Under the pieces are notes generated by a model. That model had not been told where the DNA came from, made no database searches, and was given only the letters and a program-made list of their open reading frames with translations. The position numbers and the translations under genes were made by a program. From positions 1 to 64,000 of the forward strand of contig JARCOQ010000591.1 in the NCBI GenBank assembly GCA_029207755.1: a stretch of DNA of 64,000 nucleotides. The letters are read 5' to 3'. The stretch comes from Chamaea fasciata. Taxonomy: Eukaryota; Chordata; Aves; Passeriformes; Sylviidae. Below, piece by piece: positions 18,001 to 24,000 of the stretch (positions are counted from its first letter, which is position 1; each line of letters opens with the position of its first letter).

Positions 18001-21000
18001 TCCCCCAGTTTGGGGTCCCCGTTCCCAGTTTGGGGTCCCGTTCCCAGTTTGAGATCCCCGTTCCCAGTTTGGGATCCTGTTCCCAGTTTGGGATCCCCGT
18101 TCCCAGTTTGGGATCCCGTTCCCAGTTTGGGATCCCGTTCCCAGTTTGGGATCCCCGTTCCCAGTTTGGGGTCCCGTTCCCAGTTTGGGATCCCCGTTCC
18201 CAGTTTGGGGTCCCGTTCCCAGTTTGGGGTCCTGTCCCAGTTTGGGGTCCCGTTCCCAGTTTGGGGTCCTGTCCCAGTTCGGGGTCCCCACCTCTCTCCT
18301 TGCCCCGGGGCTCCTTCCTCTTCCTCTTCCGCGCCGGTTTCAGCCAGGGGCTCTCCTTCCACCTGCGCCGCACCCGGCGCCGCGCGCTGCACGCGCTCTG
18401 CGGGGACAGGGGAGGGTCAGCGGCCCCCAAACACACCTGGGCACCCCAAAAACCCCCAAAAACACACCTGGGGACCCCAAAACACACCTGGGCACCCCAA
18501 AAACCCCAAAACACACCTGGGCACCCCAAAAACCCCCCAAAACACACCTGAGCACCCCAAAAACCCCAAAACACACCTGGGCACCCCAAAACACACCTGG
18601 GCACCCCAAAAACCCCCAAACACACCTGGGCACCCCAAAAACCCCAAAACACACCTGGGCACCCCAAAAACCCCAAAACACACCTGGGCACCCCTAAACA
18701 CACCTGGGCAGCCCGACCCCCTCCCCTAAAATCCCCCCACTGTCCCCTGACCCCGCCCAAACCTCACCTGAGCCCCCCAGCCCCGCCCCAGCCCCGCCCT
18801 GACCCGATCCGAGGCGTTCCCGGACTCCTCGTCCTCCTCCTCCTCCTCCTCTTCCTCCTCGTCTTCCTCCTCGTCCTCCTCCTCTTCCTCCTCCTCCTCC
18901 TCCTCTTCCTCCTCCTCCTCGCTCAGGGCCTCGCCCGGCACCTCGCCCTCGGACTGAGCCGGGGATCAGCGGGGGCCGGAGCCCCCCAGTCCATCCCAGT
19001 GCTCCAAGTCCATTCCAGTCCATCGCAGTGCTCCCAGTCCATTCCAGTCCATCCCAGTCCATTCCCAGGCCATCCCAGTGCTCCCAGTCCCCCCAGTCCA
19101 TTCCCAGTGTTCCCAGGCCCCTCCCAGCCTCCCCAGTCCCCCGTACCTTGCAGTCAGAGTCGCCGTGCCCGTCCCAGTCCATTCCCAGTCCATTCCCAGT
19201 CCATTCCCAGTCCCCCCAGTCCATTCCCAGTCCCCCCAGTCCCCCGTACCTTGCTGTCGGAGTCGCTGTGCCCGTCCCAGTCCATTCCCAGTCCTCCCAG
19301 TCCATTCCCAGTCCTCCCAGTCCATTCCCAGTGTTCCCAGTCCCCCGTACCTTGCTGTCGGAGTCGCCGTGCCCGTCCCAGTCCATTCCCAGTCCATTCC
19401 CAGTCCCCCCCAGTCCATTCCCAGTGTTCCCAGTCCCCAGTACCTTGCTGTCGGAGTCACCATGCCCGTCCCAGTCCATTCCCAGTCCATTCCCAGTCCT
19501 CCCAGTCCATTCCCAGTGTTCCCAGTCCCCAGTACCTTGCTGTCGGAGTCGCCATGCCCGTCCCAGTCCATTCCCAGTCCATTCCCAGTCCCCCCAGTCC
19601 ATTCCCAGTCCCCCCAGTCCCCCGTACCTTGCTGTCGGAGTCGCCGTGCCCGTCCCAGTCCATTCCCAGTCCATTCCCAGTCCATTCCCAGTCCATTCCC
19701 AGTCCCTCCCAGTCCATTCCCAGTCCCCCCAGTCCATTCCCAGTCCCCAGTACCTTGCTGTCGGAGTCGCCGTGCCCGTCCCAGTCCATTCCCAGTCCCC
19801 CCAGTCCATTCCCAGTCCCCCAGTACCTTGCTGTCGGAGTCGCCGTGCCCGTCCCAGTCCATTCCCAGTCCATTCCCAGTCCCCCCAGTCCATTCCCAGT
19901 CCATTCCCAGTCCATTCCCAGTCCATTCCCAGTCCCTCCCAGTCCATTCCCAGTCCATTCCCAGTCCATTCCCAGTCCATTCCCAGTCCCCCCAGTCCAT
20001 TCCCAGTCCATTCCCAGTCCATTCCCAGTCCATTCCCAGTCCCCCCAGTCCATTCCCAGTCCCCCAGTACCTTGCTGTCGGAGTCGCCATGCCCGTCCCA
20101 GTCCATTCCCAGTCCATTCCCAGTCCCTCCCAGTCCTCCCAGTCCATTCCCAGTCCCCAGTACCTTGCTGTCGGAGTCGCCATGCCCGTCCCAGTCCATT
20201 CCCAGTCCATTCCCAGTCCCCCCAGTCCATTCCCAGTCCATTCCCAGTCCATTCCCAGTCCATTCCCAGTCCATTCCCAGTCCTCCCAGTCCATTCCCAG
20301 TCCCCCGTACCTTGCTGTCGGAGTCACCATGCCCGTCCCAGTCCATTCCCAGTCCCTCCCAGTCCATTCCCAGTGTTCCCAGTCCCCCGTACCTTGCTGT
20401 CGGAGTCGCCGTGCCCGTCCCAGTCCATTCCCAGTCCATTCCCAGTCCATTCCCAGTCCATTCCCAGTCCCCCCAGTCCATTCCCAGTCCATTCCCAGTC
20501 CATTCCCAGTCCATTCCCAGTCCATTCCCAGTCCATTCCCAGTCCCCCCAGTCCATTCCCAGTCCCCCGTACCTTGCTGTCGGAGTCGCCATGCCCGTCC
20601 CAGTCCATTCCCAGTCCATTCCCAGTCCCCCCAGTCCATTCCCAGTCCCCCGTACCTTGCTGTCGGAGTCGCCGTGCCCGTCCCAGTCCATTCCCAGTCC
20701 ATTCCCAGTCCATTCCCAGTCCTCCCAGTCCATTCCCAGTGTTCCCAGTCCCCCGTACCTTGCTGTCGGAGTCACCATGCCTGTCCCAGTCCATTCCCAG
20801 TCCATTCCCAGTCCCCCCAGTCCATTCCCAGTCCCCAGTACCTTGCTGTCGGAGTCACCGTGCCCGTCCCAGTCCATTCCCAGTCCCTCCCAGTCCATTC
20901 CCAGTGTTCCCAGTCCCCCCAGTACCTTGCTGTCGGAGTCGCCGTGCCCGTCCCAGTCCATTCCCAGTCCATTCCCAGTCCCCCCAGTCCATTCCCAGTC

Positions 21001-24000
21001 CCCCGTACCTTGCTGTCGGAGTCGCCGTGCCCGTCCCAGTCCATTCCCAGTCCATTCCCAGTCCATTCCCAGTCCATTCCCAGTCCCCCCAGTCCATTCC
21101 CAGTCCATTCCCAGTCCATTCCCAGTCCATTCCCAGTCCATTCCCAGTCCATTCCCAGTCCCCCCAGTCCATTCCCAGTCCCCCGTACCTTGCTGTCGGA
21201 GTCACCGTGCCCGTCCCAGTCCATTCCCAGTCCCTCCCAGTCCATTCCCAGTGTTCCCAGTCCCCCGTACCTTGCTGTCGGAGTCACCATGCCTGTCCCA
21301 GTCCATTCCCAGTCCATTCCCAGTCCATTCCCAGTCCTCCCAGTCCATTCCCAGTGTTCCCAGTCCCCCCAGTACCTTGCTGTCGGAGTCGCCATGCCCG
21401 TCCCAGTCCATTCCCAGTCCATTCCCAGTCCCCCCAGTCCATTCCCAGTCCCCCGTACCTTGCTGTCGGAGTCGCCGTGCCCGTCCCAGTCCATTCCCAG
21501 TCCATTCCCAGTCCATTCCCAGTCCCTCCCAGTCCATTCCCAGTCCATTCCCAGTCCCCCCAGTCCATTCCCAGTCCATTCCCAGTCCATTCCCAGTCCA
21601 TTCCCAGTCCCCCCAGTCCATTCCCAGTCCATTCCCAGTCCATTCCCAGTCCATTCCCAGTCCCCCCAGTCCATTCCCAGTCCATTCCCAGTCCCCAGTA
21701 CCTTGCTGTCGGAGTCGCCGTGCCCGTCCCAGTCCATTCCCAGTCCATTCCCAGTCCATTCCCAGTCCATTCCCAGTCCCTCCCAGTCCATTCCCAGTCC
21801 CCCCAGTCCATTCCCAGTCCATTCCCAGTCCCCCCAGTCCATTCCCAGTCCCCCGTACCTTGCTGTCGGAGTCGCCGTGCCCGTCCCAGTCCATTCCCAG
21901 TCCATTCCCAGTCCATTCCCAGTCCCTCCCAGTCCATTCCCAGTCCCCCGTACCTTGCTGTCGGAGTCGCCGTGCCCGTCCCAGTCCATTCCCAGTCCCT
22001 CCCAGTCCATTCCCAGTGTTCCCAGTCCCCCCAGTACCTTGCTGTCGGAGTCGCCGTGCCCGTCCCAGTCCATTCCCAGTCCATTCCCAGTCCCCCCAGT
22101 CCATTCCCAGTCCATTCCCAGTCCATTCCCAGTCCATTCCCAGTCCCCCCAGTCCATTCCCAGTCCCCCGTACCTTGCTGTCGGAGTCGCCGTGCCCGTC
22201 CCAGTCCATTCCCAGTCCCCCCAGTCCATTCCCAGTGTTCCCAGTCCCCCCGTACCTTGCTGTCGGAGTCGCCGTGCCCGTCCCAGTCCATTCCCAGTCC
22301 CCCCAGTCCATTCCCAGTCCATTCCCAGTCCATTCCCAGTCCATTCCCAGTCCATTCCCAGTCCCCCCAGTCCATTCCCAGTCCCCCCAGTCCATTCCCA
22401 GTGTTCCCAGTCCCCCCAGTACCTTGCTGTCGGAGTCGCCGTGCCCGTCCACGCTGAAGCCGTCGTAGAAGAGCGAGAAGCCCGCGGCGCCCTCCGCCTC
22501 CCAGTCCCGGGGCGGGGCGGCCATCTCCTCCGTCACCGTGATCTGGGGGCACCGCGCTCAGGGGCTGCACCCGGCTGCGGGGGCTTCGGGGGTTTCCGCG
22601 TGGGGTTCAGGTGTTTTGGGCTGGTTTTAGGCAGTTTTCGGATGTCTTTGGGCTGGTTTTGGGCTGGTTTGGGCTGTTTTAGGCAGTTTTCAGCTCATCT
22701 TTGGGCTGGTTTTGGCGCTGTTTTGGGCGGGTTTTGGGCGGGTTTTGGGCTGTTTTTGGGCTGTTTTGGGGTGCTTTGGGCTGTTCTCAGATCCTCTTTA
22801 TGCTGTTTTTGGGGTGTTTTGTGCTTGTTTTCGGCTGTTTTGGGGTGTTTCGAGGTTGTTTTGGGCCGTTTTGGGGTGTTTTGGGCTACTTTTGGGGTGA
22901 CTTTGGGCTGTTTTGGGTACCTCGGTGCTGGCCCGGGGGCTGGGTCTCTGCAGCCGCTTGTGGAGCCCCTCGGGGCCGAAATCCAGCTTGGGGCGCTTGG
23001 GGGGGTCTGGGGGGGACAGGGCAGGGTCAGGGAGACCCCAGACCCCAAACCCGCACCCCGAAAACCAAAAACCCCAAAATCTGCACCCAACCCCCCCCCA
23101 GGAGCCCCCAAATCCCCCCCAGAACCCCCCAACCCCTCCCCCAGGACCCCCCAAATCCCCCCCAGAACCCCCCAAACCCCTCCCAGGAGCCCCCAAATCC
23201 CCCCCGGACCCCCCAAACACCCCCAGGACCCCCCAAACCCCACCCCAGGACCCCCCAAACCCCCCCAAGCCCCCCAAGCCCCCCGCACCGTGCTGGCCGA
23301 TGCCGCAGAGCTCCTCGGACACCCTGAAGTGCAACATCTCCGACATCCTGGGCTTCTCTGGCACCTGGGGGGGCACGGAAACAGCGCCGGGGGGGTCCCC
23401 AAACTCCCCCGAAGCCCCCCCGATCCCCGAGGGGGGCTCCCAGGCCCCCCCAAATCCCCCCCAGGCGCTCACCTGCCCGTTGCTGCTGGGCTTGGCCATG
23501 GTCTTCCGCGCCCGATGGACTTTGGGGGGCTCCGGGGGGGCCGGGGGGGGCTCGGGGGGGGCCTGGGGGGGCTCCGGGGCCGGGGGGCGACCCCCGGGCC
23601 CCCCCCCCGGGAGGCTGAGGAGGCGCAGGGCCAGGCTTTGGCCCGGCGGGGTCTTGGCACCCCCGGCCCCCGTCAGGGACATTTTGGCACGGCTCGGGGG
23701 GGGTAAAGGCGGGGTGGGGGTCCCCAAAATGGGGCCCCCCCGGCCTGGGGAGCCCGGCAGGGTCTTGGTGGCGTGGCCTGGACGGGGGGGGGGAAGGGGG
23801 GCGCAGATGTGAGACCCCCTCCCCAAAAGAATCAGCGCAGAACCGTCCCCAAACTGAGAAAGGAACCCCGAATTAACCCCCCCAAAAATCAACCAGATTC
23901 CCCCCAAATGTGTGAGACCCCCCCCCCAAAAAACGAGACCCCACCAGGACCCCCCCAGAGCTCCACAAGGGCACCCCAAAAACCCCCCCAAGACCCTCCA

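Follow-up and report, generated by a model that had tools for sequence, protein, structure and literature searches.

Analysis of a 64,000-nucleotide (nt) window of genomic DNA from the bird Chamaea fasciata (positions 1 to 64,000 of contig JARCOQ010000591.1, assembly GCA_029207755.1) revealed 28 extra copies of the end of EHMT2 exon 7, each with its splice donor, in the intron that follows the exon. These copies (here called decoys) are embedded in an 11-bp satellite. They very probably represent exon stuttering, a form of the "sequence stuttering" described on chicken dot chromosomes, whereby one side of an exon, together with its donor or acceptor, is copied through the adjacent intron (Hron et al. 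2026, Genome Biol Evol evag038, PMC12954441). A second contig (C780; 47,729 bp), most likely the other haplotype to judge from its alignment, has 11 decoys in the same intron. The functional donor reads AAG/GTACTG on the contig that holds the window (C591; 64,268 bp, in an assembly of 1.19 Gb) and AAG/GTACGG on C780, a T/G difference at position +5.

The exon 7 edge on two contigs

EHMT2 lies on the minus strand and reaches the left end of the window from a point at 23.8 kb or beyond. The gene had been named in an earlier note made from the letters of the window, and the identification holds: the SET exon scores 120.8 bits against EHMT2 chains and 104.8 bits against EHMT1 chains, and the exon order agrees with that of human EHMT2. 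The label exon 7 fits a count of three exons back from an exon-10-like exon, in the human exon numbering. Exon 10 is named as alternative in one report (PMC4330376).

The satellite, whose unit reads AATGGACTGGG in the sense direction, fills intron 7 (coordinates in Table 1), and tandem repeats make up 65% of the window. A scan of the whole window on both strands with a 32-base probe (the 28-nt exon end plus GTAC, up to 8 mismatches) located the edge in 29 places, namely the functional edge and 28 decoys, all on the minus strand; at up to 8 mismatches no copy was found on the opposite strand. Both the count and the satellite setting are those of the earlier note, which further described AAG/GTAC as kept in nearly all copies (it is intact in 28/28) and gave a spacing of 82-84 bases; that figure fits 9 of the 28 spacings, the full range being 73-244 with a median of 94. 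Over the 32 bases, 15 of the 28 decoys equal the functional edge exactly, and 1-3 differences are seen in each of the remaining 13. Shuffled introns of C591, used as a control for exon-versus-intron BLAST, produced one match of at least 20 bp, at 26.3 bits, versus 56 bits for exact copies; chance origin of the edge copies was therefore set aside.

C780 runs colinear with C591 over 2865-47146 at the least. Across 19 exon anchors, none of the 2434 aligned columns (8 gapped) holds a mismatch. Two stretches of flank that are poorer in repeats contain 7 mismatches (41 gaps) over 3001 columns and 11 mismatches (1 gap) over 2147; the gaps from anchor to anchor differ by more than 10% in 13 of 18 cases. 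Intron 7 measures 1552 nt on C780, where 10 of the 11 decoys equal the functional edge. If the two contigs are haplotypes, the difference in allele length that characterizes exon stuttering is present (3469 vs 1552 nt). The exon-side breakpoint is identical in all 39 decoys of C591 and C780, just before GGACGGGCAC, and a single breakpoint in so many copies argues for one founding event. A 334-bp block with three edges stands twice in tandem on C780 with 1 mismatch; together with the 28 and 11 copies on near-identical contigs, this supports the recent, local amplification of the gene's own exon edge that had been proposed from the window. The Glu run of exon 8 differs between the contigs by one codon (3 nt).

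Probable exon stuttering and its alternatives

The thresholds of the published screen (at least 20 bp and at least 42.1 bits, adjacent versus distant introns) were applied with exon borders set in this analysis. EHMT2 on C591 gave 26 matches in adjacent and 0 in distant introns, involving 4 of 23 introns; on C780 there were 15 adjacent and 0 distant matches in 4 of 18 introns. All families above the threshold touch the first or last base of their exon, and the exon 7 copies are direct, on the same strand and in the next intron on both contigs (28 and 11). A stretch of an 11-Mb contig (C20), taken as EHMT1 from its 45-81% exon identity, served as a control over the ankyrin-to-SET part, which corresponds to the region holding two of the four copied EHMT2 edges. 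The 9 introns of this part yielded 0 screen matches, and its tandem repeat content is 2.3%, as opposed to 74.6% for the matching part of EHMT2.

Several observations weigh against this identification. On C591, 5 of the 28 decoys score below 42.1 bits (three at 40.1 and two at 32.2), and the EHMT1 stretch compared excludes the counterpart of exon 7. The contigs (64 and 48 kb; GC 63%, with the 65% tandem repeat given above), which may or may not belong to a dot microchromosome, are without chromosome placement. Four EHMT2 exons that stay in frame on C591 are frame-broken on C780 by homopolymer insertions of a single base; these are read as consensus errors and as a quality warning for C780, whose fine detail is less sure because of them. 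Homology at the EHMT2 breakpoint is weak: 8/10 bases agree, a score that 7% of exon positions attain, and exon 7 holds a perfect satellite match in another place that was left unused. The one clear case is a repeated exon of a cohesin SA gene on contig C260, where the unit starts exactly at the best satellite match (10/10 bases; 2% of positions). Set side by side, the two cases make breakpoint homology a suggestive clue to origin only.

Two recent copies of the gene, instead of haplotypes, are a distinctly unlikely reading of C591 and C780. The lack of chromosome placement would allow this, and a decaying copy would also show frame-breaking indels in four exons; against it stand colinearity over nearly all of C780, exon columns free of mismatches, the few differences in the flanks, and the fact that genome searches that scored only the best candidates returned no third EHMT2. 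An assembly artefact, by which a short intron was expanded or collapsed, is more improbable still, even with two short contigs and homopolymer errors on one of them: like architecture, with different copy number, is found on two separate contigs, similar edge copies occur at other genes and contigs, and the intron repeats of chicken PHF8, a different gene, were confirmed in raw nanopore reads (PMC12954441).

Growth, decay and use of the decoys

We infer the following order of events for the growth of the array by exon stuttering. The G-rich 11-bp satellite would have expanded in EHMT2 intron 7 right beside the donor, and one rearrangement would have joined it to the exon-internal GGAC, placing a second exon end and donor among its units. 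Slippage, unequal exchange or conversion may then have amplified this composite, on one occasion or more by several edges together, until one haplotype held 28 copies and the other 11. The copy at the outer end, still joined to the remainder of the exon, would stay in use as the splice site; because it keeps working, the coding sequence would be spared and the array could drift nearly neutrally.

Together the 39 decoys show 21 base differences, 20 of which are CpG transitions. AAG/GTAC is kept in 39/39, and this donor core is without CpG; its conservation consequently says nothing about selection, and a reading of the intact core as a sign of constraint is not supported. Selection on the core is not needed where the changes fall at CpG. 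Position +5 is G in 17 and T in 11 of the decoys on C591, and G in 6 and T in 5 on C780. Decoys that also match the flank following the functional donor comprise 5 with G and 5 with T on C591 and, on C780, 2 with G and 2 with T, these last two carrying a one-base variant. Read from the bases, the flank and +5 patterns fit an exchange between the functional edge and the decoys; alternatively, the +5 pattern may stem from a one-base indel in the functional edge that was subsequently copied.

According to a donor matrix, the 17 C591 decoys reading AAG/GTACGG score 4.43, versus 0.67 for the functional AAG/GTACTG, and the other 11 equal the functional donor. The frame that continues from exon 7 on C591 is open for 406 codons, with 4 of 28 decoys in frame and without a stop (+249, +564, +1047 and +1152 nt); on C780 the exon 7 frame stays open through all 1552 nt of the intron and takes in 4 of 11 decoys. 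The frame is open because the satellite is nearly without stop codons, so the use of a decoy would not always be destructive. Most decoys are probably silent in splicing, because only the outermost donor has the full exon before it.

The use of the extra donors as alternative 5′ splice sites, giving EHMT2 isoforms with a repeat insert of variable length, nevertheless deserves consideration, although we think it unlikely. The decoys with G at +5 outscore the functional C591 donor by the matrix, the open frame would take in four decoys on each contig, and IFI6 repeat units acting as donors provide a precedent (cited in PMC4526556). On the other side, the remaining two frames are long too, which makes openness a property of the satellite; the functional donor of C780 already has G at +5, and homopolymer errors weaken the frame statements for that contig. 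Selective retention of the array for a part in regulating EHMT2, through splicing or chromatin, is scarcely credible: the whole donor cores would agree with it, as would the frequency of the sense-strand triplet GGG (13 per 100 nt), a motif that can strengthen donors, but the confinement of 20 of 21 changes to CpG explains the cores without selection, copy number varies (28 vs 11), and similar edge copies are present in several other genes and contigs. There is also an outside chance that the functional exon 7 donor swaps sequence with its own decoys, creating alleles of different strength (T or G at +5), the weaker of which slips to in-frame decoys. A length-variable, stop-free repeat would then be inserted into a histone methyltransferase beside its Glu-rich region, and a satellite would be becoming coding.

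Other edge copies and known systems

Besides that of exon 7, three more EHMT2 exon edges (two donor, one acceptor) are copied, and edges of other exons in the window are copied as well (Table 1).

Table 1. Positions in the window of the exon 7 array, of other copied exon edges and of exons with a broken frame on C780
Feature	Position	Strand	Basis or remark
EHMT2 exon 7 (functional copy of edge)	22423..22542	minus	open reading frames and sequence; splice borders read from sequence
Functional exon 7 edge with donor AAG/GTACTG (final 28 nt of exon, then GTAC)	22419..22450	minus	edge scan
EHMT2 intron 7, 3469 nt on C591	18954..22422	minus	
11-bp satellite array, plus-strand unit CCCAGTCCATT	18985..22413	minus	Tandem Repeats Finder (TRF)
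28 decoy copies of exon 7 edge + donor	19143..22283	minus	edge scan
Decoy starts on plus, first 14	19143, 19246, 19347, 19440, 19532, 19624, 19750, 19823, 20067, 20160, 20307, 20389, 20569, 20652		
Decoy starts on plus, last 14	20755, 20838, 20922, 21005, 21185, 21267, 21372, 21455, 21698, 21855, 21950, 22034, 22170, 22252		
EHMT2 exon 8, Glu-rich, acceptor of intron 7	18804..18953	minus	low end (donor) approximate, read from sequence
Functional donor edge of ankyrin exon, donor CAG/GTGGGA	6962..7040	minus	
Extra copy of ankyrin-exon donor edge, next intron	6798..6873	minus	74/74 nt identical (6800-6873); 2 extra on C780
Functional donor edge of another EHMT2 exon	16327..16387	minus	
Extra copy of 16327..16387 edge, next intron	16157..16217	minus	2 mismatches/61; 1 extra on C780
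Functional acceptor edge of DNGGWTP exon	7607..7631	minus	
Extra copy of DNGGWTP acceptor edge, preceding intron	8059..8083	minus	25/25; 1 extra on C780
Extra copy, acceptor-side edge of phostensin-like exon	39971..40029	plus	functional 40078-40157
Extra copy, acceptor edge of sushi-domain exon	52189..52220	plus	functional 52304-52335
Extra copy, donor edge of vWA-like exon (by motif only)	55304..55342	plus	functional 54938-54976
Exons frame-broken on C780, matching window positions	23560-23760, 17668-17764, 13090-13270, 8523-8645		

The phostensin-like exon (PF13916, E 1.3e-5) has 2 edge segments on C591 (39971-40157) and 5 on C780 (39054-39742). Among PDB matches of the sushi-domain exon, complement receptors rank above factor B and C2; the vWA-like exon gave no match in PDB and none in Pfam. 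A weaker copy, of the EENICLH acceptor edge (31 bp, 87%, 7253-7283), is absent from the matches obtained under the published criteria and was not counted. The intron after the ankyrin exon contains a 36-bp array (5887-6645; 21 copies, 92% alike by TRF) that is more complex than the adjoining C/A-rich repeats, and the anchor gap around it is 1132 nt on C591 vs 1921 on C780. A minus-strand coding stretch adjoining EHMT2 (~26900-29150) is presumably ZBTB12-like, and a ZBTB12 gene in this place would fit mammalian gene order. An ovalbumin-like gene cluster is present in the assembly, with a best last exon 70% identical to that of chicken (chicken ovalbumin as query), which agrees with a bird genome other than that of chicken.

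A search for three units of the 11-bp satellite, allowing 1 mismatch, placed it on C260, C461, C476 and C1303 as well. C260 encodes a cohesin SA (SA-2 match, E 6.8e-8), and 13 extra copies of an exon end and donor of this gene lie in CCCAGTCCAT satellite (L023:3479-5698); two further cohesin SA exon edges are repeated nearby (L023:1-589 and 674-1392; SA-2, E 0.0016). Donor-edge-like sequences on the same contig end in TTCCGCCGCAG/GTGAGC, three times with period 169 (29233-29610), and in TTCAAGGCGCAAG/GTGAGG, twice (38521-38665). No exon edge was seen in the C461 satellite array that was read; elsewhere C461 has an extra copy of the EIF3K acceptor edge. A 27-nt unit on C461, AG/GGCACTGTGAGCGCCTGGCCTGGGAT/GTGAG, present in three tandem copies (~61440-61760), resembles a whole micro-exon with both splice sites. 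A 72-bp pair on that contig, which we take to be alpha-actinin-like and to consist of mutually exclusive exons, is likely a known alternative exon pair and was left uncounted.

Occurrence of the same array at many unrelated loci, which the earlier note named as a refutation, applies in part: the satellite recurs on other contigs, whereas the EHMT2 edge was found only on C591 and C780 in searches that scored only the best candidates. All 31 matches of an exon-edge DNA search of the assembly, likewise among best candidates, fall on these two contigs (29 are the exon or its edge, and 2 are the start of a wrongly oriented probe); the search returned 16 of the 28 C591 decoys, so absence from other contigs is unproven. 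The idea that the edge is itself a general satellite is not supported by this distribution among the best candidates.

New here is a large case of exon stuttering on two alleles with functional donors that differ at +5 (T/G). It places high-copy exon stuttering outside chicken, in a conserved chromatin gene whose two alleles can be read base by base, and makes the mechanism testable through one founding junction, block-wise growth and CpG decay as a clock. The array is a natural experiment in which the spliceosome chooses one donor among 28 near-identical ones, and the allele pair allows 28 decoys with a weak functional donor to be compared with 11 and a stronger one.

The earlier note knew of no description of a satellite built from an exon/donor edge of its own gene; exon stuttering in chicken, published in February 2026 (PMC12954441), and the minisatellite splice donors cited for human IFI6 overturn that statement. 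IFI6 (6-16) contains a minisatellite with multiple splice donors (Turri et al. 1995, via PMC4526556). Like the EHMT2 array, it is a minisatellite with donor-bearing units; use of two downstream units is reported, whereas the EHMT2 decoys are candidate donors. The IFI6 unit is reportedly ~12 nt long, whereas in EHMT2 satellite sequence separates exon edges of 28 nt. De Grassi and Ciccarelli (2009, PMC2812944) described internal tandem repeats where exons meet introns within human segmental duplications. These too are tandem repeats at exon borders and can alter splicing, but they concern human paralogues and half are within coding exons, whereas the extra EHMT2 copies are intronic.

In chicken, exon stuttering affects 115 genes and 236 introns, with 1-44 copies (median 4) of an exon part of 20-187 bp (median 36); more than 90% of the sources lie at most 1 base from the exon border, stuttering was not seen in corresponding ohnologs, and local repeat expansions are present in other birds in some instances (PMC12954441). 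The main text of the paper mentions EHMT2 0 times, and chicken EHMT2 may be in the supplementary list of 115 genes; among the literature matches listed from 2022 on, the terms "sequence stuttering" and "exon stuttering" are used only by Hron et al. 2026. The EHMT2 copies agree with the chicken cases in being anchored at the exon border, in their exon part of 28 nt, in their number (28 and 11) and in their variable, repeat-rich introns, and the EHMT1 paralogue, in the part examined, is without copies, as the ohnologs are. The EHMT2 case differs in belonging to a bird other than chicken, in being read base by base on two alleles whose functional donors differ at +5, and in a satellite that hosts the edges of two unrelated genes, EHMT2 and cohesin SA.

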